DNA of 64,000 nt from NCBI RefSeq assembly GCF_019635465.1, contig NZ_JAHBZK010000001.1, positions 248,001 to 312,000 on the forward strand, written 5' to 3'. The number at the start of each line of letters is the position of its first letter. Positions within the stretch are counted from its first letter, which is position 1. The notes under the pieces were generated by a model. That model saw only the letters and a program-made list of their open reading frames with translations. It was not told the origin of the DNA and did no database searches. Positions 7,192 through 50,561 of the stretch are shown one piece after another. The translations under genes and the position numbers were made by a program. Source of the stretch: Hydrogenophaga sp. Lineage in GTDB: Bacteria > Pseudomonadota > Gammaproteobacteria > Burkholderiales > Burkholderiaceae_C.

Positions 7192-8199
7192 TCAGCAAGT
7201 GCCCAGGGTGATGCCCAGGCGGTGCAGGTAGCGACGGTAGGCGCTGCTCACGCGATCGGCCGGGCCGTGCACTTCGCGGACCGGCCCCATGCGCCCGATC
7301 GGCAGGACCTTGGGCTGCTGCGATTCAACCACCGGGCGGTCCTGGGCGAACACCGTGTCCTGAAACTCGACCACCGACGCCGAGCTGGCCGGGTCATTGT
7401 GGGTCGCCATCACGAACCAGGCGGTGCAGGCTTCATCGCCATCAGGCCGGATGAACAACGCGATGGCGTTGCGCACCGGGTCGCCCTCGCTTGCGTCCTT
7501 GCGCAGTACGGCGGCGTAGGGGTGCGGCACGGTGTAGCCGTAGTCGATCCAGGCGCCGCCGTCGGCGTTGGCGTAGGCGCGGGGTTGCCAGGCACGCGCA
7601 GCGCTCACGCGCACGCCCAGCGGCCCTTCGCTCACCTCGCCGGTCTGCACCTGCGCGTGGCCGCGCTCGCCCAGCCAGCCTTCGTGCACGAAGCCGAAGT
7701 GGCTGAGGTCCAGAAAGTTCTCCACCAGCCTCGGTGCGCTGGTGGCCACGCTGTAGGGGCCACAGATCACGCGCCGCCAGGCGGGGTCATCGGCTTCGGC
7801 AAACGCCGGTGGCGCATCCAGCGGCACCCCGGGTGGCAGGCCGGCCCAGGGCTGCAGCCGAACCCAGATCAGGCCATGCAGTTCGATCGCTTCCACCACC
7901 GTCGCCGCGTGGCCCGACGGTGGGTGAAAGTCGGGCGAGGCCGGCACATGCTGGCAGCGCCCACCGCCTTCGAACTGCCAGCCGTGGTACGGGCATTCCA
8001 GGCGCAAACCGTGCGTGGTGGTGAGCACCCGCCCAAGCGACAGGCGCGCACCGCGGTGCGGACAGCGGTCCACCCAGGCGTGCACGCTGGCATGGTCGCG
8101 CCACAACACCAGCGGCTCGCCCATCAGGTGAATGGCCATCGGCGCGTCACGCAGGGCATGCGCATCGGCCACGGGGTGCCAGAGTTGTCGTTCGATCAT
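7192..8199 (-). CDS. Rieske 2Fe-2S aromatic-ring-hydroxylating oxygenase subunit, purine locus
   Basis: This 335-aa oxygenase has an N-terminal Rieske domain (CPHRGARL near residue 46 and CPYHGWQF near 69, giving the two Cys and two His ligands). Its C-terminal catalytic domain carries the mononuclear iron ligands in ENFLDLSHFGFVH near residue 165. It resembles vanillate O-demethylase-type and N-methylpurine demethylase (Ndm)-type enzymes. No reductase gene is adjacent, so electrons must come from elsewhere. It lies 15 bp before the deaminase gene, which suggests a purine or methylpurine substrate; this is inferred from context. Oddly, the start lacks a Shine-Dalgarno sequence and sits directly behind a terminator-like hairpin. 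Confidence 0.85.
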   Translation of the reverse strand: MIERQLWHPVADAHALRDAPMAIHLMGEPLVLWRDHASVHAWVDRCPHRGARLSLGRVLTTTHGLRLECPYHGWQFEGGGRCQHVPASPDFHPPSGHAATVVEAIELHGLIWVRLQPWAGLPPGVPLDAPPAFAEADDPAWRRVICGPYSVATSAPRLVENFLDLSHFGFVHEGWLGERGHAQVQTGEVSEGPLGVRVSAARAWQPRAYANADGGAWIDYGYTVPHPYAAVLRKDASEGDPVRNAIALFIRPDGDEACTAWFVMATHNDPASSASVVEFQDTVFAQDRPVVESQQPKVLPIGRMGPVREVHGPADRVSSAYRRYLHRLGITLGTC

Positions 8200-8202
8200 G
8201 TG

Positions 8203-8234
8203 TGTGAAAAACAAAAGCCGCCCAAGGGCGGCTT
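8203..8234 (-). terminator. terminator or attenuator immediately upstream of the Rieske oxygenase gene
   Basis: On the minus strand, AAGCCGCCC pairs perfectly with GGGCGGCTT around a two-base loop, followed by TTTTGTTTTT. It should end transcripts from the importer operon. The T-run ends only a few bases before the Rieske start codon at 8199, which leaves no room for a separate promoter or ribosome site. Confidence 0.75.
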
Positions 8235-8265
8235 GTTTGTACGCCAAACGCTGGAGGCGTAGCGA

Positions 8266-8360
8266 GCGGGTGTCAGGCTAGGCGGACGGAGCGCAGGAAC
8301 CGGAACGTACTTCCTGTACGTGAGGATTCCGAGCACCGCCCAACGACGCATGACGCCCGC
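8266..8360. repeat. 95-bp imperfect palindrome, REP-like
   Basis: Outer arms GCGGGTGTCA (8266-8275) and TGACGCCCGC (8351-8360) pair with one mismatch. Inside, GGCGG pairs with CCGCC, and an inner GGAA..ACGTAC / GTACGT..TTCC stem surrounds a short loop. The whole 3' region of the BMP lipoprotein gene is therefore one long foldback. The layout resembles dispersed intergenic palindromes seen in Burkholderiales, but I saw no second copy in this window. Confidence 0.6.
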
Positions 8361-8373
8361 GCAGTAGCCGATC

Positions 8374-9531
8374 TCACTGCGGCACTTTGCCTTCGACGCC
8401 CTTGACATAAAACTTGATGCCACCCAGGAAGGCGTCGTCGGCCTTGGCGTCCTTGGCCAGCACTTCCTTGCCGGCCTGGTCGACGATGGGGCCGGTCCAG
8501 GGGTGGAAGCTGCCGTCCTTGAGGCCGGCTTTGATGGTGTCGATCTTGGCCTTGACTTCGGCGGGCACGTCTTCGGCGATCGAGACGATGTCGATCGATC
8601 CTTCCTTCACACCCCACCACGAGCCGCTGTTGCCCGTCCAGGTGCCGTCCAGCATGTCTTTGGTGGCCTTGATGTAGTACGGACCCCAGTTGATGATGGA
8701 CGACGCCAGGTGGGCCTTGGGGCCGTAGGCGGTCAAATCCGAATCCCAGCCGAAGGCGCGCTTGCCCATCTTCTCGGCGGTCTGCAGCACGGCCGACGAA
8801 TCGGTGTTCTGGAACAGGATGTCGGCGCCGCCGTTGATCAGCGAGGTGGCGGCCTCGGTTTCTTTTGGCGGATCGAACCAGCCGTTGACCCACACCACCT
8901 TGGTCTTGACCTTGGGGTTCATGGACTGCGCACCCAGCGTGAAGCTGTTGATGTTGCGGATCACCTCGGGGATTGGGATCGAGGCCACCACGCCCAGCGT
9001 GTTGCTCTTGGTCATGGCACCGGCAATCACACCCGCCATGTACGCGCCTTCGTAGGTGCGACTGTCGTAGGTGCGCATGTTCTCGGCCTGCTTGTAGCCG
9101 GTGGCGTGCTCGAACTTCACGTCCTTGAAGTCGGCGGCGACCTTGAGCATGGGCTCCATGTAGCCGAAGGTGGTGCCGAAGATCAGCTTGTTGCCGTTGG
9201 ACGCCATGTCGCGGATCACGCGCTCGGCGTCGGCGCTCTCGGGCACGCTCTCCACGAAGCTGGTGACGACCTTGTCACCGAACTCCTTTTCGATCGCCTT
9301 GCGACCGTTGTCGTGCGCGAAGGTCCAGCCGCCGTCGCCCACCGGGCCGACGTAGGCAAAGGCGATCTTCAGCGGCTCGGCCTTGGGCGCCTCGGCGGCG
9401 GCCGGTGCCGGTGCGGGCGCTGCGGCGGGCGCGGCGGCCTCTTCCTTCTTGCCGCAGCCAATCAGCGCGGCGGCGGCCAGCGCGCTCAGCGCGGCGGCCT
9501 TCATCAGGGAACGTTTGTTCAGGTCGGTCAT
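8374..9531 (-). CDS. BMP family lipoprotein, nucleoside/purine ABC transporter substrate-binding
   Basis: This 385-aa binding protein has a lipoprotein signal: a basic start, a hydrophobic stretch, then LIGC with the lipid-anchored Cys at residue 26. An Ala/Pro/Glu-rich linker follows (residues 28-55) before the PnrA/BMP domain beginning at IAFAYVGPVGDGGW. A GAGGA ribosome site precedes the start. It is the last gene of the unit LysR-ATPase-permease-permease-binding protein and is presumably the main receptor of this importer. Substrate is inferred as purine nucleosides or bases from family (YufN/PnrA) and neighbours. Confidence 0.92.
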   Translation of the reverse strand: MTDLNKRSLMKAAALSALAAAALIGCGKKEEAAAPAAAPAPAPAAAEAPKAEPLKIAFAYVGPVGDGGWTFAHDNGRKAIEKEFGDKVVTSFVESVPESADAERVIRDMASNGNKLIFGTTFGYMEPMLKVAADFKDVKFEHATGYKQAENMRTYDSRTYEGAYMAGVIAGAMTKSNTLGVVASIPIPEVIRNINSFTLGAQSMNPKVKTKVVWVNGWFDPPKETEAATSLINGGADILFQNTDSSAVLQTAEKMGKRAFGWDSDLTAYGPKAHLASSIINWGPYYIKATKDMLDGTWTGNSGSWWGVKEGSIDIVSIAEDVPAEVKAKIDTIKAGLKDGSFHPWTGPIVDQAGKEVLAKDAKADDAFLGGIKFYVKGVEGKVPQ

Positions 9532-32500: not shown

Positions 32501-33535
32501 TTGAGTCAGTCAAGCATTGGCGGATTTCGCATCGCAGGTGTGAGCACCTGCATGCCGCCCACCACCGTGGACAACCTGGATCCCGCCTTGGGATTTGCAC
32601 CCGAAGACGTGCGCAAGGTGGTCGCCATGGCGGGCGTGCGCGAACGCCGCGTGGTCTCGGACGGCCTGACCTCGGGGGATCTGTGCGAACGCGCTGCTTC
32701 GCGGCTCATGCAGGCACTGGGCTGGGCGCCCGACACCATCACCGCCCTGATCTTTGTCACCCAGACGCCGGACCATTTCCTGCCCTCCACCAGTTGCCTG
32801 CTGCAGCAACGCCTGGGCCTGAGCGATCAGTGCGCCGCCTTCGACGTGGGACTGGGCTGCTCCGGCTACCCCTACGGCCTGTACCTGGCCGCGACGATGC
32901 TGCGCGCCGGTGGGCACCAACGCATCCTGATGCTGCACGGCGAAACCCCCAGCCGCTTTGTCAGCCCGCAAGACCAGGCCACCGTGCTCTTGTTCGGCGA
33001 CGCCGGCTCGGCCACCGCGCTGGAGCTCGATGACGATCCCGCGGCAGGTGGCCATTTCGTGCTGCACACCGATGGCAGCGGGGCCGACGGCCTGATTCTT
33101 CGAGGCGGCGCCTTTCGCGACCGCGAACCCGCCGACCCCCGTCACCGCTACCTTGAGATGGATGGCGCGGCCATCTTCAACTTCACCATCAAGCGCGTGC
33201 CGCCGCTCATTGCCGACACGCTGGCACTGGCCGGCAAGGCGGTCGCCGACGTCGACGCCTACGTGCTTCACCAATCGAACCGTTTCATCATGAAGCACCT
33301 CATGAAGAAATGCGGCCTGCCGGAAGACCGTGTGCCCATCTGCATCGAAGACAGCGGCAATTGTGGTGGCCCGTCGGTGGCGGTGGCCATGACGCAGCGC
33401 CTTGCAACCCCCGCCAAGGGCCAGCGCATGCACTGGATGCTGCTCGGCTACGGCGTCGGCCTGTCCTGGGGATCGGCCCTGGTGCAGATCGACGATCGCA
33501 CGCTGCTGCTGCACGACAACGGCGACGGACTGTGA
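32501..33535 (+). CDS. ketoacyl-ACP synthase III-like protein (FabH family)
   Basis: This 344-aa thiolase-fold enzyme has an intact Cys-His-Asn triad: Cys120 in DVGLGCSGY, His257 in VLHQSNRF and Asn287 in SGNCGGPS. It could condense an acyl starter with malonyl-ACP, or transfer an acyl group. The start is a TTG with a strong GGAGG ribosome site; no ATG fits the conserved N-terminus. The GNCGGPS context differs from housekeeping FabH (GNTSAAS). It opens a seven-gene operon and is 6 bp from an ACP gene, its likely partner. A secondary-metabolite or surface-acyl role is more likely than fatty acid initiation. Confidence 0.88.
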   Translation: MSQSSIGGFRIAGVSTCMPPTTVDNLDPALGFAPEDVRKVVAMAGVRERRVVSDGLTSGDLCERAASRLMQALGWAPDTITALIFVTQTPDHFLPSTSCLLQQRLGLSDQCAAFDVGLGCSGYPYGLYLAATMLRAGGHQRILMLHGETPSRFVSPQDQATVLLFGDAGSATALELDDDPAAGGHFVLHTDGSGADGLILRGGAFRDREPADPRHRYLEMDGAAIFNFTIKRVPPLIADTLALAGKAVADVDAYVLHQSNRFIMKHLMKKCGLPEDRVPICIEDSGNCGGPSVAVAMTQRLATPAKGQRMHWMLLGYGVGLSWGSALVQIDDRTLLLHDNGDGL

Positions 33536-33541
33536 CCTTCG

Positions 33542-33823
33542 ATGGACCCCCACATGAGCAACCCGCCCAAGACGACCATTTCGACCGACGACGCGATGGC
33601 CATGATGGCCCAGTGTTTCAACGTGGCAACGTCGACACTGCACCCGGCGCTGGAACGCGAGGCGATCCCGGACTGGGATTCCATGGGTGCGCTGATGTTG
33701 ATTGCCGAACTGGACGAGCGCTTCGGCATCGAGCTCACCGCAGACGTTTCGCGCGAGATGAAGCGCATCGGCGATGTGCTGGATTTCCTGCGAGCGCATG
33801 GGGCGCTGCGTGACACAGCCTGA
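33542..33823 (+). CDS. acyl carrier protein (first of two in the cluster)
   Basis: This 93-aa carrier has the phosphopantetheine attachment motif DWDSMGALMLIAELDERFGI, with Ser47 as attachment site. An ATG at 33554 is an alternative start. It is 6 bp after the KAS III gene and overlaps the following GNAT-like gene. The motif DSMG rather than DSLD of housekeeping AcpP marks it as a dedicated carrier. No phosphopantetheinyl transferase is in the cluster, so a host enzyme would activate it. Confidence 0.88.
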   Translation: MDPHMSNPPKTTISTDDAMAMMAQCFNVATSTLHPALEREAIPDWDSMGALMLIAELDERFGIELTADVSREMKRIGDVLDFLRAHGALRDTA

Positions 33824-34958
33824 GACCGACCCGGCCCCACCCGCGCGAGTACCCGGGTTGGCGGCGCTGGGTCGCCTTGTTGCGCGCAGTCTGGGCATCG
33901 ACGTATCGACGCTCGAAGCAAGTCTTCAGCCCGTGACCCTGGATGAGCTGCCCGACGTCACCGAGTTTCGGCGCACCCACCTGAGCCTGAGCGACGCCTG
34001 GGACGACCCAGGCTATCTGCAATGGCGCTATCGCCTCGGCCGCGACCAGGGCGGCTTTGGTGAGTTGTGGCGCGTTCGAAGCCAGGGGCGCCTGCTCGCC
34101 ATCCTCGGCCTGGAACAGATGGAGATCATGTTGCAGGGCGAGGTCACGCAGGGCGCGCAGGTGATGGACCTGCTGGTGCATCCCGATGCGCAGGAGTCCG
34201 GCCTCGGCGTCTGGATCAATCAGGCCCTGCTCGCGCGCCAGGCGTTCACCCTGGCCGTGGGCGCCAACCAGAATTCGGCCGGAATTGTGCGTCGGCTGTT
34301 TCTCCCGTTGGCGCCGCGGCTCACGCTCACCCACCTGCTGGACCTGCGCCCGTTCGTGGAGCGTCGCTGGCCCCGACTGGCGCGGCTGCCTCTGGCGACG
34401 AGGCTCGCCAACGTGGGACTGGCGTGTTGGCGGTGGACCCTGCTGCGTCAGGGCGACCGCAACATTGCGCTGCACACGGTGACGCGGCTCGATTCACTGC
34501 CTGCAGAGGGCGGACACGGGCCGAACACTGTGCAGCGCCGCCATTCGGCTGACTACCTGCAACGACGCCTGTTCAACAATCCGCGCCGGGCGCTCTCGGT
34601 GCGCCTGGCCTCACGTGGCGAAGCCGTGATCGGTCTGATCGCCTGGGCGGTGGAGCACGACGACCTGGGTCGCCCCGAACTGCACATCGTCCACTGGCAA
34701 CACGACCAGCCCGACACCTTCATCGCGCTGTTGCAGGACGCAGTGCGGCAGGCCAACGCACTTCGCTGCACCTGCGTGCGCGTGCTCCTGCAAGACCAGG
34801 CGACACAGGACGCCGCCCTGCGCGTGGGCTTTCTGCACGCAAGACACGACCCGGGCCGCCCGTGCGGGGTTCAAGCCAGCGATGCCGATCTGGCGCAACG
34901 CCTGGCCCGCGCAACCTGGTCACTGACCGATCTGACCGATGACAGCGATGGCTACTGA
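33810..34958 (+). CDS. tandem GNAT-like acyltransferase, uncharacterised
   Basis: This protein of about 382 aa appears to hold two related halves. The first (residues about 25-160) has YLQWRYRLGRDQGG and MDLLVHPDAQESGLGVWINQAL, the latter like GNAT motif A. The second (about 245-360) has YLQRRLFNNPRR, then VIGLIAWAVEH and a helix-strand tail. Similar proteins occur in polysaccharide or lipid-modification clusters. The acyl donor could be one of the two ACPs. The GTG start at 33810 overlaps the ACP gene by 14 bp; ATG 33798 is an alternative. Assignment to GNAT is by motif inspection only. Confidence 0.65.
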   Translation: MTQPETDPAPPARVPGLAALGRLVARSLGIDVSTLEASLQPVTLDELPDVTEFRRTHLSLSDAWDDPGYLQWRYRLGRDQGGFGELWRVRSQGRLLAILGLEQMEIMLQGEVTQGAQVMDLLVHPDAQESGLGVWINQALLARQAFTLAVGANQNSAGIVRRLFLPLAPRLTLTHLLDLRPFVERRWPRLARLPLATRLANVGLACWRWTLLRQGDRNIALHTVTRLDSLPAEGGHGPNTVQRRHSADYLQRRLFNNPRRALSVRLASRGEAVIGLIAWAVEHDDLGRPELHIVHWQHDQPDTFIALLQDAVRQANALRCTCVRVLLQDQATQDAALRVGFLHARHDPGRPCGVQASDADLAQRLARATWSLTDLTDDSDGY

Positions 34959-34985
34959 GACCCGCCACAGTGGCGCTGACTGACC

Positions 34986-36926
34986 ATGTGTGGCATTGCC
35001 GGTCTCTTCAACCCCGACCAGACGCCCGACACAGGTGATCTGCGCGCCATGATCCGGGCCATCGCCCACCGCGGGCCCGATGGACAGGGCGTGTTCGTGT
35101 CGGGACCGGTAGGGCTTGCCCACGCCAGGCTTGCCATCATCGATCCGCAAGGGGGTGCACAGCCCATGGCCAGCGCCGATGGCCAGGTACACCTCGTTTT
35201 CAACGGCGAGATCTTCAACTACCTGGAACTGCGCGAGACCTTGCGGGGGATGGGCCACCGCTTCGTCACCGAATCCGACACAGAGGTCTTGCTGCACGCC
35301 TACCTGGCCTGGGGAGACGCGTTCCTCACCCGACTCAATGGCCAGTTCGCGATCGGCTTGTGGGACGCGCGCCGACAACGGCTGCTGCTGGCACGCGACG
35401 GTGTCGGCATCCGGCCACTGTTCTGGACGCGCATGGGGCGCCGACTGGCCTTCGCATCGGAAGCCAAAGCCCTGTTCGCCCTGCCAGAGGTGCCCCGCCG
35501 GCTCGATGCGGCCGGCCTGGCGGGCACCTTTGGATGGTGGGCACCGGTGGCCCCGACCTCTGCCTTTGAGGGCATCCAGGTGCTCCCTCCCGGCCATTGC
35601 CTGGTCGTCGACGCGCAGGGCGAATCGCTGCAACGCTGGTGGGACTGGTCGTTTCCGGACGTCGACCCCTTTGCCCCGGTCGATGAAGACGCGCTGGCCG
35701 ACGAGTTGCACGCCTTGCTGGTCGATGCCGTTCGACTGCAACTGCGCGCCGATGTGCCGGTTGGCGCCTACCTGAGCGGCGGCCTGGACTCCTCGATCAT
35801 CACGACGGTCATTCGCCGCCACACCCAGACCCCGCTGCGCAGCTTCTCGCTGCGCTTCGACGATGCCGAATTCGACGAGGGCAGCGAGCAGCAGGCCATG
35901 GTGGACCACCTAGGCACCACCCATTCCTCGATTGGTTGCAGCCGTCAGGACATCGCCGACGCCTTCGCGCGCACGGTCTGGCACGCCGAAACACCCCTGG
36001 TGCGCACCGCGCCGGCGCCCATGCTGCGGCTGGCCGACAGCGTGAGGGCCGCCGGCTACAAGGTCGTGCTCACCGGCGAAGGCGCCGACGAGGTGTTTGG
36101 CGGCTACGACCTGTTCAAGGAAGCACACATCCGGCGCTTTGTGGCGCGACAGCCCACATCGTCGCGACGCCGTCGTGCGGTTGAGCGGCTGTACCCCTGG
36201 ATGAGCACATCGCCCACCGGGGCCAATGCCCTGTCGCAACACGTCTTCACGCACAGCAGCGTGCCCGCCGACGACCCCTGCTTTGCGCACCAGACGAGGC
36301 TGACCAGCACCCGCCGCGTTCAAGGCTTCTTCACGCGCGAATGGCAGGCCGCAATGGCACAGCACGACCCGGCCGCGCAGTGGCGACAGCAGGTGCCAGC
36401 CGGCTTCGGGCAATGGCAAGCCTTGCAGCGCGACCAGTACGTCGAAGCGCACACCCTGATGAGCGGGTATTTGCTGGCTGCCCAAGGCGACCGGATGGCC
36501 ATGGCGGCCTCGATCGAAGGGCGCTACCCCTACCTCGACCCACGCGTGCTGGCATTTGCCGCCCGGCTGCCCGTGCGTCTGAAGTTGCGCGGCCTGCGCG
36601 AAAAGCTGTTGCTGCGCAAAGCCTTCGCGCACGAATTGCCGGCGCACATCGGCCAACGCGTCAAACAACCCTACCGCTCGCCCGACAGCGCCAGCTTCTT
36701 TGCAGAGGGCAAGGCGCTGCCATGGGTGGCCGATCTGCTGAGCGAGGGCAGCCTGCGCGAGGCCTCGCTGTTCGATCCGGTCGCTGTGTCACGTCTGTCC
36801 GCCAAATGTGCCGCGGGCCGCGCCATCGGTTTCGCCGACAACATGGCCTTCGTTGGCGTGCTGTCCACCATGCTGCTGCACCGGCAGTTCGTGAGCGCAG
36901 ATCTGCCGGCACCGGAGTTGGCATGA
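34986..36926 (+). CDS. asparagine synthetase B-type glutamine-dependent amidotransferase
   Basis: This 646-aa enzyme has an N-terminal class II glutaminase (nucleophile Cys2 in MCGIAGLF, then HRGPDGQG, NGEIFNY and the SDTEVLL loop) and a C-terminal ATP pyrophosphatase (SGGLDSS at residues 264-270, GEGADEVFGGY near 365). It adenylates a carboxylate and amidates it with ammonia from glutamine. In this cluster the substrate is probably not aspartate but a pathway intermediate, as for AsnB homologues in polysaccharide and natural-product clusters. The stop overlaps the ligase start (ATGA). Confidence 0.9.
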   Translation: MCGIAGLFNPDQTPDTGDLRAMIRAIAHRGPDGQGVFVSGPVGLAHARLAIIDPQGGAQPMASADGQVHLVFNGEIFNYLELRETLRGMGHRFVTESDTEVLLHAYLAWGDAFLTRLNGQFAIGLWDARRQRLLLARDGVGIRPLFWTRMGRRLAFASEAKALFALPEVPRRLDAAGLAGTFGWWAPVAPTSAFEGIQVLPPGHCLVVDAQGESLQRWWDWSFPDVDPFAPVDEDALADELHALLVDAVRLQLRADVPVGAYLSGGLDSSIITTVIRRHTQTPLRSFSLRFDDAEFDEGSEQQAMVDHLGTTHSSIGCSRQDIADAFARTVWHAETPLVRTAPAPMLRLADSVRAAGYKVVLTGEGADEVFGGYDLFKEAHIRRFVARQPTSSRRRRAVERLYPWMSTSPTGANALSQHVFTHSSVPADDPCFAHQTRLTSTRRVQGFFTREWQAAMAQHDPAAQWRQQVPAGFGQWQALQRDQYVEAHTLMSGYLLAAQGDRMAMAASIEGRYPYLDPRVLAFAARLPVRLKLRGLREKLLLRKAFAHELPAHIGQRVKQPYRSPDSASFFAEGKALPWVADLLSEGSLREASLFDPVAVSRLSAKCAAGRAIGFADNMAFVGVLSTMLLHRQFVSADLPAPELA

Positions 36927-38452
36927 ACGGCACGCAAACCAACGGCCCCCTGATGCACAGCGCGTTCGAGGCCCTCGCCCTGACGCAGCCTGACAAGACC
37001 GCGCTGGTAGCGGGCGAGCGCCAGGTGAGCTACGGTGCCTTGGCCCGCCTGGCGCAGGGCATGGCCGACAGCCTGCGCGAAGCCGGTATTGCCCCGGGCG
37101 ACAGGGTGGTGGTGTTGCTCGACGGTGGCATCGACTACGTGGCCGCTCTCTACGGCGTGCTCGCCCTGGGCGCGGTGGCCGTGCCGTTGGGTCCGCAGAC
37201 GCGCGCGGCGAAGCTCTCGCATGTCTTGAGCGACACGGGCGCGCGCGCGCTGCTCACCCAGGCCACGCTGGCCAACGTCTGGGCAGGGGCGCTGCCCGAG
37301 CAGGGAACGCCACCCATGGTCTGGTGCCTGGGCGAGACTCCCGCACCGGCAAGACCCTGGCCCGCACCGGCCCACACGTTCCAGGGTTTTGACTCGCCGC
37401 GCAGCCCCGATGAACTGGCGGTGCTCATCTACACCTCCGGCACCACCGGCAACCCCAAAGGCGTGATGCTGACCCACGCCAACATGCTCGCAGCGTGGCG
37501 CGTTGCCCAGTCTTACCTGCAGTTTCGCGACGACGACGTGATCGGCTTGGCCTTGCCGCCCAGCTTCAGCTACGGGCTCTATCACATCGTCATGGGCCTG
37601 GGCCTGGGCGCCACAGTGGTGCTGGAAAACACGGCCGCCTTTCCCGTGCGACTGCTGCAGCGACTGGCATCCCAGCGCGTGACCGTGTTCCCCGCGGTAC
37701 CCATGCTCTGGGCCAGTCTGCTGGCGCAGGACATGGCAGCCCACGACCTGTCGGCGCTGCGCCTGATCACCAATGCCGGCGCCGCCTTGCCACCGGCCCA
37801 CGCACTAATGCTTCAGCAACGACTGCCGGGCGCACGCCTGTTGCTGATGTACGGCCTGACCGAATGCATGCGCGCGAGCTACCTGCCCCACGATGAGTTG
37901 GCGCGCCGCCCCGACAGCGTCGGTCGGGGCCTGCCCTTTCAAGAACACTGGCTGCAGGACGAGCACGGCCAGCGACTGCCACCCGGCAGCACGGGCGAGC
38001 TGGTGGTGCAAGGGGCGCACGTGAGCGTGGGCTACTGGAACGCACCGGCCGCGACCGCCGGGCGCATCGGCGCCGGCCCCGACGGCACACGCATCCTGCG
38101 CACGGGCGACGTTTTTCGCAGCGACGAAGAGGGCTGGCTGTATTGCGTGGGGCGGGTCGACGACATCTTCAAGTCCCGCGGCGAAAAGGTCAGTCCCCAG
38201 GAGGTCGAGCACGCCATCTGCGAGTTGCCGGCCGTGCTCGAAGCCGCCGTCACCAGCATGCCCGACGAGCGTCTGGGCCTGGCCGTGCGCGCCTTCGTGC
38301 AATTGCGCCCTGGCGCTGCACTCAGCGAGCGCGAGGTCATCCGCCATTGCCAGGCACGACTGGAGAGCTGGCTGGTTCCCAGGCTGGTCAGCTTCGTGAC
38401 CGAGCTGCCCCGTACCGAGTCGGGCAAGCTGCGCCGCCGGGACCTGGCCTGA
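36923..38452 (+). CDS. AMP-forming acyl-CoA/acyl-ACP ligase
   Basis: This 509-aa class I adenylate-forming enzyme shows core motifs YTSGTTGNPKGVM near residue 170, YGLTECMRASY near 312, RTGDVFRSDEEGWLYCVGRVDDIFKSRGEKVSP near 390-425 and the C-terminal Lys in TESGKLRRRDL. It activates a carboxylic acid and most likely loads it onto the ACP encoded 55 bp downstream rather than onto CoA. It is coupled to the amidotransferase by a four-base overlap. The acid cannot be predicted by eye. Confidence 0.9.
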   Translation: MNGTQTNGPLMHSAFEALALTQPDKTALVAGERQVSYGALARLAQGMADSLREAGIAPGDRVVVLLDGGIDYVAALYGVLALGAVAVPLGPQTRAAKLSHVLSDTGARALLTQATLANVWAGALPEQGTPPMVWCLGETPAPARPWPAPAHTFQGFDSPRSPDELAVLIYTSGTTGNPKGVMLTHANMLAAWRVAQSYLQFRDDDVIGLALPPSFSYGLYHIVMGLGLGATVVLENTAAFPVRLLQRLASQRVTVFPAVPMLWASLLAQDMAAHDLSALRLITNAGAALPPAHALMLQQRLPGARLLLMYGLTECMRASYLPHDELARRPDSVGRGLPFQEHWLQDEHGQRLPPGSTGELVVQGAHVSVGYWNAPAATAGRIGAGPDGTRILRTGDVFRSDEEGWLYCVGRVDDIFKSRGEKVSPQEVEHAICELPAVLEAAVTSMPDERLGLAVRAFVQLRPGAALSEREVIRHCQARLESWLVPRLVSFVTELPRTESGKLRRRDLA

Positions 38453-38507
38453 CCTTCACCGTCTTCCTCTCACCACTTTCTCACCACTTGTTCACCACAG
38501 GCCGACC

Positions 38508-38765
38508 ATGAACACCATCCGACAAGACGTCCGACGCTACATCGAAGAGAACCTGCTGCTTGGCGCGGGCGCCCGTCTGCCAGAAGACGCCGACTCCTTT
38601 CTCGAATACCAGATCCTCGACTCCACCGGCTTCCTGGAGCTGGTGGCTCACCTCGAGGAGACCTACGGCATCAAGGTCGGCGACGACGAAATGGTGCCCG
38701 AGAACCTCGACTCGCTCGCCGCCATCGAGGCCTTCGTGCTGCGCAAGCAAGAGGCCGCGCAATGA
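38508..38765 (+). CDS. acyl carrier protein (second of two in the cluster)
   Basis: This 85-aa carrier has its attachment Ser39 in YQILDSTGFLELVAHLEETYGI. It differs strongly from the first ACP (ILDSTG versus DWDSMG), which suggests separate partner enzymes: this one with the acyl ligase upstream, the other with KAS III. The stop overlaps the next gene (ATGA). Confidence 0.88.
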   Translation: MNTIRQDVRRYIEENLLLGAGARLPEDADSFLEYQILDSTGFLELVAHLEETYGIKVGDDEMVPENLDSLAAIEAFVLRKQEAAQ

Positions 38766-39736
38766 GCCATCAAGCCCTGGGGCCAGCGTGCCTGAGCATC
38801 GACTACGAGACCGAACTGCAACGCATCGCGGCCTGGATGCCACAGGTGTTGACGCAGAAGCTGCGCCGCCGTGGGCTCGTGGTGGCCATCAGCGGCGGCA
38901 TCGACAGCTCGGTGTGCGCCGCACTGGCCGTGCACGCCCTGGGCCCGAAGCGCGTGTTCGGCCTGCTCATGCCCGAGCGCGACTCCAGCGGCACCAGCAC
39001 GGCGCGCGGGCGGCTGCTGGCGCAGCACCTGGGCATCGAGCACACGGTGCACGACATTGCACCGGCGCTGGAGGCCCTGGGTTGCTACACCCAGCGCGAC
39101 GAGGCCATTCGGCGTGTGGTGCCCGCGTATGGCGAAGGCTGGAAGAACAAGATCGTGATCGCCGGCGGCGTTGATGGCGGCATCAACTACTTCAAGCTGG
39201 TGGTGCGCTCACCCGACGGTGAACAGCAAAGCGTTCGCCTGCCGCTGCGCGAGTACCTGCAGATCGTCGCCGCCACCAACTTCAAGCAGCGCGTGCGCAA
39301 GACCCTGGACTATTTCCACGCCGACCGTTTGAACTACGCCGTGGTGGGCACGCCCAACCGGCTCGAGTACGACCAGGGTTTCTTCGTGAAGAACGGTGAC
39401 GGCGCCGCCGACATCAAGCCGATCGCCCACCTCTACAAGACACAGGTCTATGCGATGGCGCGTCACATGGCATTGCCCGACGAGATCTGCAACGCCGTGC
39501 CGACCACCGACACCTACTCGCTTCCACAGGGTCAGGACGAGTTCTACTTTGCGCTGCCCTACGCACAGATGGACCTCGCGCTGTGGGCACTGAACCACCA
39601 GCGCAGCGCCGACGAACTGGCAACGGCGCTGGGCATCACCGCGGCGCAGGCAGCACGGGTCTTCGACGACATCCGTGCCAAGCGCCGCGCCACCGAGTAC
39701 CTGGCCGGTGCGGCCGAGCTGATGCCCGACGCCTGA
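38762..39736 (+). CDS. NAD-synthetase-like ATP pyrophosphatase of the cluster
   Basis: This 324-aa protein has the N-type ATP pyrophosphatase P-loop AISGGIDSSVCAALAVHALG (residues about 42-61). Other NadE-like blocks follow: GLLMPERDSSGTSTARGRLLA, VGTPNRLEYDQGFFVKNGDGAADIKP and HLYKTQVYAMA. In place of the usual PTADL..GQTDE block it reads PTTDTYSLPQGQDEFYF, so the substrate may not be nicotinate adenine dinucleotide. There is no glutaminase domain. Its place at the end of an ACP/ligase/amidotransferase operon argues for amidation or adenylation of a pathway product. A real NadE role cannot be excluded. Confidence 0.8.
   Translation: MSHQALGPACLSIDYETELQRIAAWMPQVLTQKLRRRGLVVAISGGIDSSVCAALAVHALGPKRVFGLLMPERDSSGTSTARGRLLAQHLGIEHTVHDIAPALEALGCYTQRDEAIRRVVPAYGEGWKNKIVIAGGVDGGINYFKLVVRSPDGEQQSVRLPLREYLQIVAATNFKQRVRKTLDYFHADRLNYAVVGTPNRLEYDQGFFVKNGDGAADIKPIAHLYKTQVYAMARHMALPDEICNAVPTTDTYSLPQGQDEFYFALPYAQMDLALWALNHQRSADELATALGITAAQAARVFDDIRAKRRATEYLAGAAELMPDA

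Positions 39737-48869: not shown

Positions 48870-50561
<1,692 letters not shown>

Follow-up and report, generated by a model that had tools for sequence, protein, structure and literature searches.

Seven adjacent genes of a Hydrogenophaga sp. place fatty-acid-type enzymes, an acid ligase and two homologues of amide-forming enzymes in a single operon, and what such a set might make is the question addressed here. The operon occupies positions 32501-39736 on the plus strand of a 64,000-nucleotide stretch (contig NZ_JAHBZK010000001.1, positions 248,001 to 312,000; hereafter the window). As an earlier sequence-only reading had reported, all seven open reading frames (ORFs) lie on one strand, each overlapping its neighbour or separated from it by at most 55 bp. 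We find that the set consists of two modules, separable but linked: a widespread four-gene module B, encoding an AsnB-type enzyme, a ligase, an acyl carrier protein (ACP2) and a NadE-like protein, and a rarer module A, encoding a beta-ketoacyl-ACP synthase III (KAS III), another acyl carrier protein (ACP1) and a tandem-GNAT acyltransferase. As to the product, our preferred reading, which could well be right but is advanced tentatively, is that the operon builds an amide-bearing acyl group with which an amino sugar of some surface polysaccharide is then decorated.

Two separable modules

Module B comprises an AsnB-type glutamine amidotransferase/synthetase (34986..36926; MCGI start, SGGLDSS loop, TIGR01536), a class I adenylate-forming acid ligase (AMP-ligase; 36923..38452; PF00501/PF13193), the acyl/peptidyl carrier protein ACP2 (38508..38765; PF00550, serine in ILDSTGFLEL) and a NadE-like ammonia ligase of the PRK00876 subfamily (38762..39736; NF002048). 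Its AsnB/ligase and ACP2/NadE-like junctions are ATGA overlaps, and 55 bp separate the ligase gene from that of ACP2. Module A, upstream on the same strand, comprises the FabH-like KAS III (32501..33535; PF08541/PF08545 over cut-off), whose gene starts with TTG and has GGAGG immediately 5', ACP1 (33554..33823, or from an alternative ATG at 33542; serine in DWDSMGAL) and the tandem-GNAT acyltransferase, assigned by its predicted fold (33810..34958 from a GTG, with ATG at 33798 or 33774 as alternatives), which overlaps the ACP1 gene by 14-50 nt, according to the start chosen.

Conservation was assessed in 96 loci besides the window, comprising four plasmid loci, 12 loci from the host family and the 80 best of at least 563 contig-scan matches; L034 is identical to L020, and L057 overlaps L021. 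The genes in these loci are our own ORF picks, and the labels of neighbour clusters derive from a single representative of each. Because they are the best of a much longer series, the 80 loci are biased towards close relatives, and a phylum-wide sample of 398 genomes, in which NadE-like proteins were accepted at E <= 1e-80, is the fairer one. Of the 80 loci, 62 extend 7 kb or more upstream of NadE, and neighbours were counted in these at a search distance of 7.5 kb.

Within that distance the ligase accompanies NadE in 61/62 loci, ACP2 in 62/62 and AsnB in 51/62, whereas KAS III and ACP1 do so in 7/62 each. In the phylum-wide sample the NadE-like protein was found in 15 of the 398 genomes, among them the host and G091, both known beforehand; in the 13 further carriers the ligase is never more than about 2.2 kb away, and ACP2 and AsnB are present in 12/13 each. 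Since the four-gene core recurs at nearly every NadE-like locus, the operon is more than a chance assembly. The protein was not found in the host order outside the host family (at E <= 1e-50, two of 300 genomes carry it, both of the host family). Its closest named relative among the matches listed is that of a Hydrogenophaga metagenome-assembled genome (85%).

Whether the seven genes occur together elsewhere was one of the tests set by the sequence-only reading, and they do so in part: the four-gene core is widespread, and all seven families are found together at 6/96 loci (L026, L039, L041, L048, L054 and L100), with the gene order of the window repeated only in L041, from Pseudoxanthomonas wuyuanensis. 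That reading had also envisaged a single linear route from ACP2 through KAS III to ACP1, which is not supported, as the modules separate and KAS III homologues are at just 10/96 related loci. In genome G033, an operon of KAS III, ACP1 and tandem GNAT stands alone on contig C9 (L123:7864-10439), and the NadE cassette lies on another contig. Yet in a host-family sample of 200 genomes (13 NadE-like carriers and 187 others), the module A GNAT is confined to three genomes, the host included, all of them among the 13 carriers (p 2e-4; 2/199 and p 0.003 without the host; p values uncorrected for kinship). We conclude that the modules are separable but linked, because the trio can stand alone and the host-family GNAT nevertheless occurs only in NadE carriers.

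The flanks are as first described. One is formed by the thiamine genes ThiC, ThiG and ThiE, with a FAD oxidoreductase where ThiO would be expected, and the other by a LysR regulator with a glutathione S-transferase; a DUF1653/Oxidored-like gene sits between the thiamine genes and the operon. A promoter and terminator scan gave no excess over shuffled sequences. The host genome (3.9 Mb in 29 contigs) is 88% complete. Among the related loci, L020/L034 carry at 7218-8549, between a first ACP2 and NadE, a PrmC-like gene and, after it, pieces of another ligase and ACP2, an arrangement that looks like a duplicated and then decayed part of the cassette. A gene of 285-286 codons after NadE in L036 and L042 had no informative Pfam match.

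The enzymes of the two modules

The NadE-like protein scores 487.9 bits on NF002048 (NCBI PRK00876; cut-off 313). PF02540 covers its residues 20-108 and 167-305, corresponding to profile positions 3-90 and 97-233, with residues 108-167 standing in for six profile positions, i.e. about 50 extra residues, predicted to form one helix and three strands. The structural model (pLDDT 84.4) has the NAD synthase fold, with NAD synthetase 2e18 as the best Foldseek match, and the adenylation motifs are kept among the homologues (SGGxDS in 97/97, TNxKQRxRK in 95/97). Another NAD synthase is present in 25 of the 26 carriers examined; in eight the glutamine-dependent model was over cut-off, and in the other 17 the protein was identified through PF02540 (three of these by a partial match only, in frames of 695-876 residues). 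For these 25, the NadE-like protein is thereby ruled out as the only NAD synthase; the sole exception is the host, in whose 88% complete genome no second one was found. In nearly all carriers, then, the NadE-like protein is an extra paralogue of NAD synthase. Carboxylate activation and ammonia addition are still to be expected of it, presumably on a different substrate.

The operon ligase has as its best family the exosortase-A-associated ligase TIGR03098, at 363.5 bits well under the cut-off of 592.35. Elsewhere in the window (48870-50561) lies a second AMP-binding enzyme with about 30% identity to it. Across 93 aligned ligases an arginine directly follows the YGxTE motif in every case; because this residue could be common to a broader ligase family, it speaks only weakly for a dicarboxylic acid as substrate. 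An aspartate in a particular adenylation-domain column is used by non-ribosomal peptide synthetase (NRPS) domains for alpha-amino acids, and an NRPS-like alpha-amino-acid code was not supported as a rule for these ligases, as the aspartate is present in 29/93. Our guess is that the substrate is a small acid. ACP2 scores 24.3 bits on PF00550 (cut-off 20.8), its solved relatives including peptidyl carrier proteins such as PltL; on the ornithine-lipid ACP model NF052616 it reaches 40.8 bits (cut-off 130).

That the ligase and ACP2 form an acid-loading pair, as the sequence-only reading had it, gains support from Sinorhizobium meliloti, whose pSymB carries AsnB, ACP, ligase and NadE in a row. From the description, the record being without gene tags, we take the ligase and ACP of this cassette to be SMb20650 and SMb20651. 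The two are cotranscribed, and in Escherichia coli the ligase leads to acylation of the ACP (Ramos-Vega 2009, as cited in the passages seen of PMC7232532). The same passages describe SMb20650 as a predicted long-chain fatty acyl ligase that cannot substitute for FadD on long-chain acids (PMC7232532). An extract of a separate study records lower expression of smb20650 when Myxococcus xanthus is the predator (PMC10315480).

The operon AsnB scores 486.7 bits on TIGR01536 (cut-off 267.1). Its matches to two more specific families fall under their cut-offs, with 391.7 bits on the XrtA amidotransferase family TIGR03108 (the WbpS group; cut-off 816.9) and 340 bits on TIGR03104 (cut-off 570.1), the amidotransferase of N-acetylglutaminylglutamine amide (NAGGN) synthesis; its closest solved chain is 7ylz, a hydroxyamidotransferase. 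The earlier view of the AsnB and NadE homologues as amide-forming enzymes is supported.

Many relatives add a PrmC-like methyltransferase gene, found near the cassette in 16/62 loci and in 6/13 of the phylum-sample loci. Each of the eight genomes tested has one or more further HemK-family genes besides it, all over cut-off, and one cassette member just clears the PrmC cut-off (199.7 against 199.1). PrmC enzymes act on glutamine, whose amide nitrogen they methylate, and this makes a methylated carboxamide an attractive idea.

In module A, KAS III has 4efi as its closest solved chain (E 1.1e-81), and the Cys-His-Asn active-site motifs GCSG, HQSN and GNCGG are kept in 11/11, 11/11 and 10/11 sequences, respectively, the window included. 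ACP1 is under the PF00550 cut-off (17.6 bits, E 0.0047, against 20.8) and under those of the ACP models, and the WDS motif is found in 6/6 members of its cluster. The third gene has no match in Pfam or NCBIfam. An AlphaFold model of its product, built from eight sequences (mean pLDDT 82.7), finds N-myristoyltransferases and the acetyltransferase 3n7z as best Foldseek matches (E down to 1.5e-11, TM 0.44-0.54, rmsd 4.6-10.9). As the model matches tandem-GNAT acyltransferases, the label 'tandem GNAT-like' given to this gene at the outset is right, and we assign the protein, by its predicted fold, to the GNAT superfamily. A second GNAT family, of about 350 residues, adjoins cassettes in 28/97 compared neighbourhoods and is homologous to that of module A (hhalign 99.1%, E 4.9e-19).

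Some relatives add a ketoreductase-type short-chain dehydrogenase/reductase to module A. Two of the four KAS loci without the module A GNAT have an aminoglycoside-3-N-acetyltransferase-type gene beside the KAS/reductase/ACP1 set (L019:3985-4875 and L035:1792-2742), possibly a swapped-in acyltransferase. In L035, module A also has a FabA-like dehydratase and reductases, and a sugar-type C-methyltransferase is encoded at the same locus; an epimerase there was recognised by eye only, and what looks like a sugar nucleotidyltransferase (L035:16584-17402) had no Pfam match.

Polysaccharide, small metabolite or lipid

The suggested connection to polysaccharides comes from the relatives, as polysaccharide-type genes lie near the cassette at 35/80 related loci, and clusters that we label XrtA-type at 17/80; none lie in the window itself. 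When a single representative of each of 11 neighbour clusters was put to hidden Markov models, the glycosyltransferases, deacetylases and FemAB were clear. Azospirillum thermophilum has an O-antigen ligase, three glycosyltransferases, a deacetylase, ACP, ligase, AsnB, NadE and GNAT in one row, and an exosortase gene adjoins the L019 cassette (G197:C1:617774-618544). On another contig, the host itself has an exopolysaccharide (EPS) cluster (G000:C29:1-38000, covering L150 and L151) in which eight exosortase-A-associated families are over cut-off: deacetylase, FemAB TIGR03019, ATPase, TIGR03108, O-glycosylation ligase, chain-length, kinase and export proteins. The TIGR03108 amidotransferase of this cluster scores 1035 bits and is a gene distinct from the operon AsnB. 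The earlier remark that no glycosyltransferase is included holds for the operon, but related cassettes often stand in or near polysaccharide loci.

Under our preferred reading, the ligase would adenylate a small organic acid and load it onto ACP2. The NadE-like enzyme would adenylate a carboxylate of that acid, or of a sugar, and convert it with ammonia into a carboxamide, and AsnB would be a glutamine-fed amidotransferase of the same pathway, perhaps acting on a uronic acid like WbpS. Where present, the PrmC-like methyltransferase could then N-methylate the amide. KAS III would join an acyl starter and a malonyl unit on ACP1, and the tandem GNAT would move the finished acyl group from its carrier to an amine. 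The substrates, the amide product, its N-methylation and the amino-sugar acceptor are what we infer here. A narrower version takes PRK00876 proteins, despite their annotation as NAD(+) synthase, to be carrier-dependent amide synthetases that amidate the free carboxylate of an ACP2-held acid (perhaps a dicarboxylic acid, recognised through the arginine that is invariant in the ligase), before possible PrmC-like N-methylation and GNAT transfer to an amino sugar; as a joint proposal we regard it as rather unlikely. If true, it would mean that the whole family is misannotated and would add a new route to the amide substituents of polysaccharides. NF002048 was scored on the window protein only, and for the rest of the subfamily the proposal relies on the gene context that the homologues share.

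A number of observations weigh against the polysaccharide proposal. The operon contains no sugar-biosynthesis or glycosyltransferase gene, 45/80 loci showed no EPS-type cluster (Thiomonas-type ones among them), and minCDE genes are the neighbours of the cassettes in S. meliloti and a Rhizobium, where no glycan cluster was seen. Among the seven XrtA-type clusters, only the deacetylase TIGR03006 (11/80 loci) has a representative over cut-off, with five representatives under cut-off, partly from incomplete sequence, and FemAB recognised by Pfam only. Exosortase dependence was rejected as a rule, with PF09721 in 9/13 NadE carriers and 93/187 others (p 0.25) and no exosortase found in the 88% complete host genome; a PEP-CTERM motif search gave no match anywhere, controls included, and so speaks for neither side. 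AsnB is not within 7.5 kb of NadE in 11/62 loci, a tandem GNAT of either family was found in only 24 of the 49 loci with room on both sides, and a hypothetical gene upstream of AsnB in Rhizobiales (L003-L005), considered as a further GNAT, has no demonstrable homology to GNATs. The NRPS-type aspartate is absent from 64/93 ligases. The N-methylation idea is weakened by the PrmC-like proteins themselves, because the NPPY motif, kept in 15/23, is altered to LPPY or APPY in eight (duplicates L034 and L057 included); the Thiomonas-type LPPY loci (L023, L024, L047, L059, L076, L079 and L096) are also ones where no AsnB was seen near the cassette.

Alternatively, the operon could make a small secreted or intracellular metabolite, such as an amidated acyl amino acid or a dipeptide-like compound, along the lines of the NAGGN osmolyte or of small carrier-protein pathways and with no polysaccharide involved. 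This is the main rival and, in our estimation, improbable without being far-fetched: it accords with an operon that has neither glycosyltransferase nor exporter, with S. meliloti and Thiomonas-type cassettes not seen in glycan loci, with a ligase and an ACP2 that resemble NRPS adenylation domains and peptidyl carriers, and with an AsnB whose closest solved relative is a hydroxyamidotransferase and which has some similarity to the NAGGN model. That last match is well under its family cut-off, though, the GNAT-like protein has no NCBIfam match, and polysaccharide-type genes lie near the cassette at 35/80 loci. A role in altering a membrane lipid or the acyl chain of lipopolysaccharide, with fatty acids on ACP2, elongation by KAS III and acylation of an amino headgroup by the GNAT, would suit the similarity of ACP2 to the ornithine-lipid ACP model, the resemblance of the GNAT fold to N-myristoyltransferase and the long-chain prediction for the S. 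meliloti ligase. We consider it quite unlikely, given that AsnB and NadE would be left without a role, that the lipid model is under cut-off and that SMb20650 is no replacement for FadD on long-chain acids (as stated in the passages seen of PMC7232532).

A further explanation would make the NadE-like gene an ordinary back-up NAD synthase that came to lie in the operon by chance. The NCBI family is named NAD(+) synthase, the adenylation motifs are intact and the host genome, as far as it is complete, yielded no second NAD synthase. Set against this are the linkage to the ligase and ACP2 at essentially every locus with room to see them (and to the ligase in 13/13 of the phylum sample), the other NAD synthase in 25/26 carriers and the roughly 50 residues that are not in PF02540, and this explanation strikes us as very improbable indeed.

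Significance and known systems

The two-module operon is real, conserved and, as far as we searched, undescribed: like the sequence-only reading, which knew of no described pathway with this set, we found no published account of the seven genes in the open-licence PMC literature, although absence there is no proof. In the 15/398 phylum-wide genomes that have it, the cassette goes unnoticed because its genes are called AsnB, ACP, AMP-ligase and NAD synthase. Should the preferred reading be true, many genes named nadE would be misannotated and metabolic models would count the wrong NAD synthase. It would also mean that soil, plant-associated and symbiotic bacteria, S. meliloti included, have a polysaccharide substituent still to be discovered, in the form of amidated and perhaps N-methylated acyl groups.

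Among known systems, NAGGN biosynthesis combines an AsnO-type amidotransferase with a GNAT, and is not known to involve a carrier, ligase or NadE. The operon shares the AsnB and GNAT pairing and a match to TIGR03104, its AsnB being under the family cut-off. Flagellin-glycan islands carry fatty-acid-type enzymes (ACP, a CaiC-like ligase, FabG and FabZ) beside glycan genes, much as some relatives of the operon do, whereas no AsnB or NadE-like enzyme is named in the sections seen of PMC4875605. The S. meliloti cassette is an experimental parallel for module B, with its ligase-ACP pair next to AsnB and NadE and its reported ACP acylation; it differs in having no module A, and no product is known for it in the parts seen of PMC7232532.

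Another parallel is the Wbp/Vim pathway for the linking sugar of the type IX secretion system. There, a uronamide is the product of WbpS, an AsnB-type enzyme, and attachment of an amino acid to an amino sugar is the role proposed for the putative N-acetyltransferase VimA; the authors speculate on a link to PEP-CTERM/exosortase loci (passages of PMC7468200). Neither a carrier protein nor a ligase, NadE or KAS III is named in the portions seen of that source ('acyl carrier' has 0 occurrences; PMC7468200). The operon differs further in that its AsnB is under the TIGR03108 cut-off and its GNAT has no NCBIfam match, true TIGR03108 and TIGR03019 members being encoded at the other host locus. What the two systems have in common is an AsnB-type amidotransferase paired with a GNAT-type transferase, which in the Wbp/Vim pathway modify an amino sugar (PMC7468200), and by this analogy the operon may work in part like the Wbp/Vim pathway.

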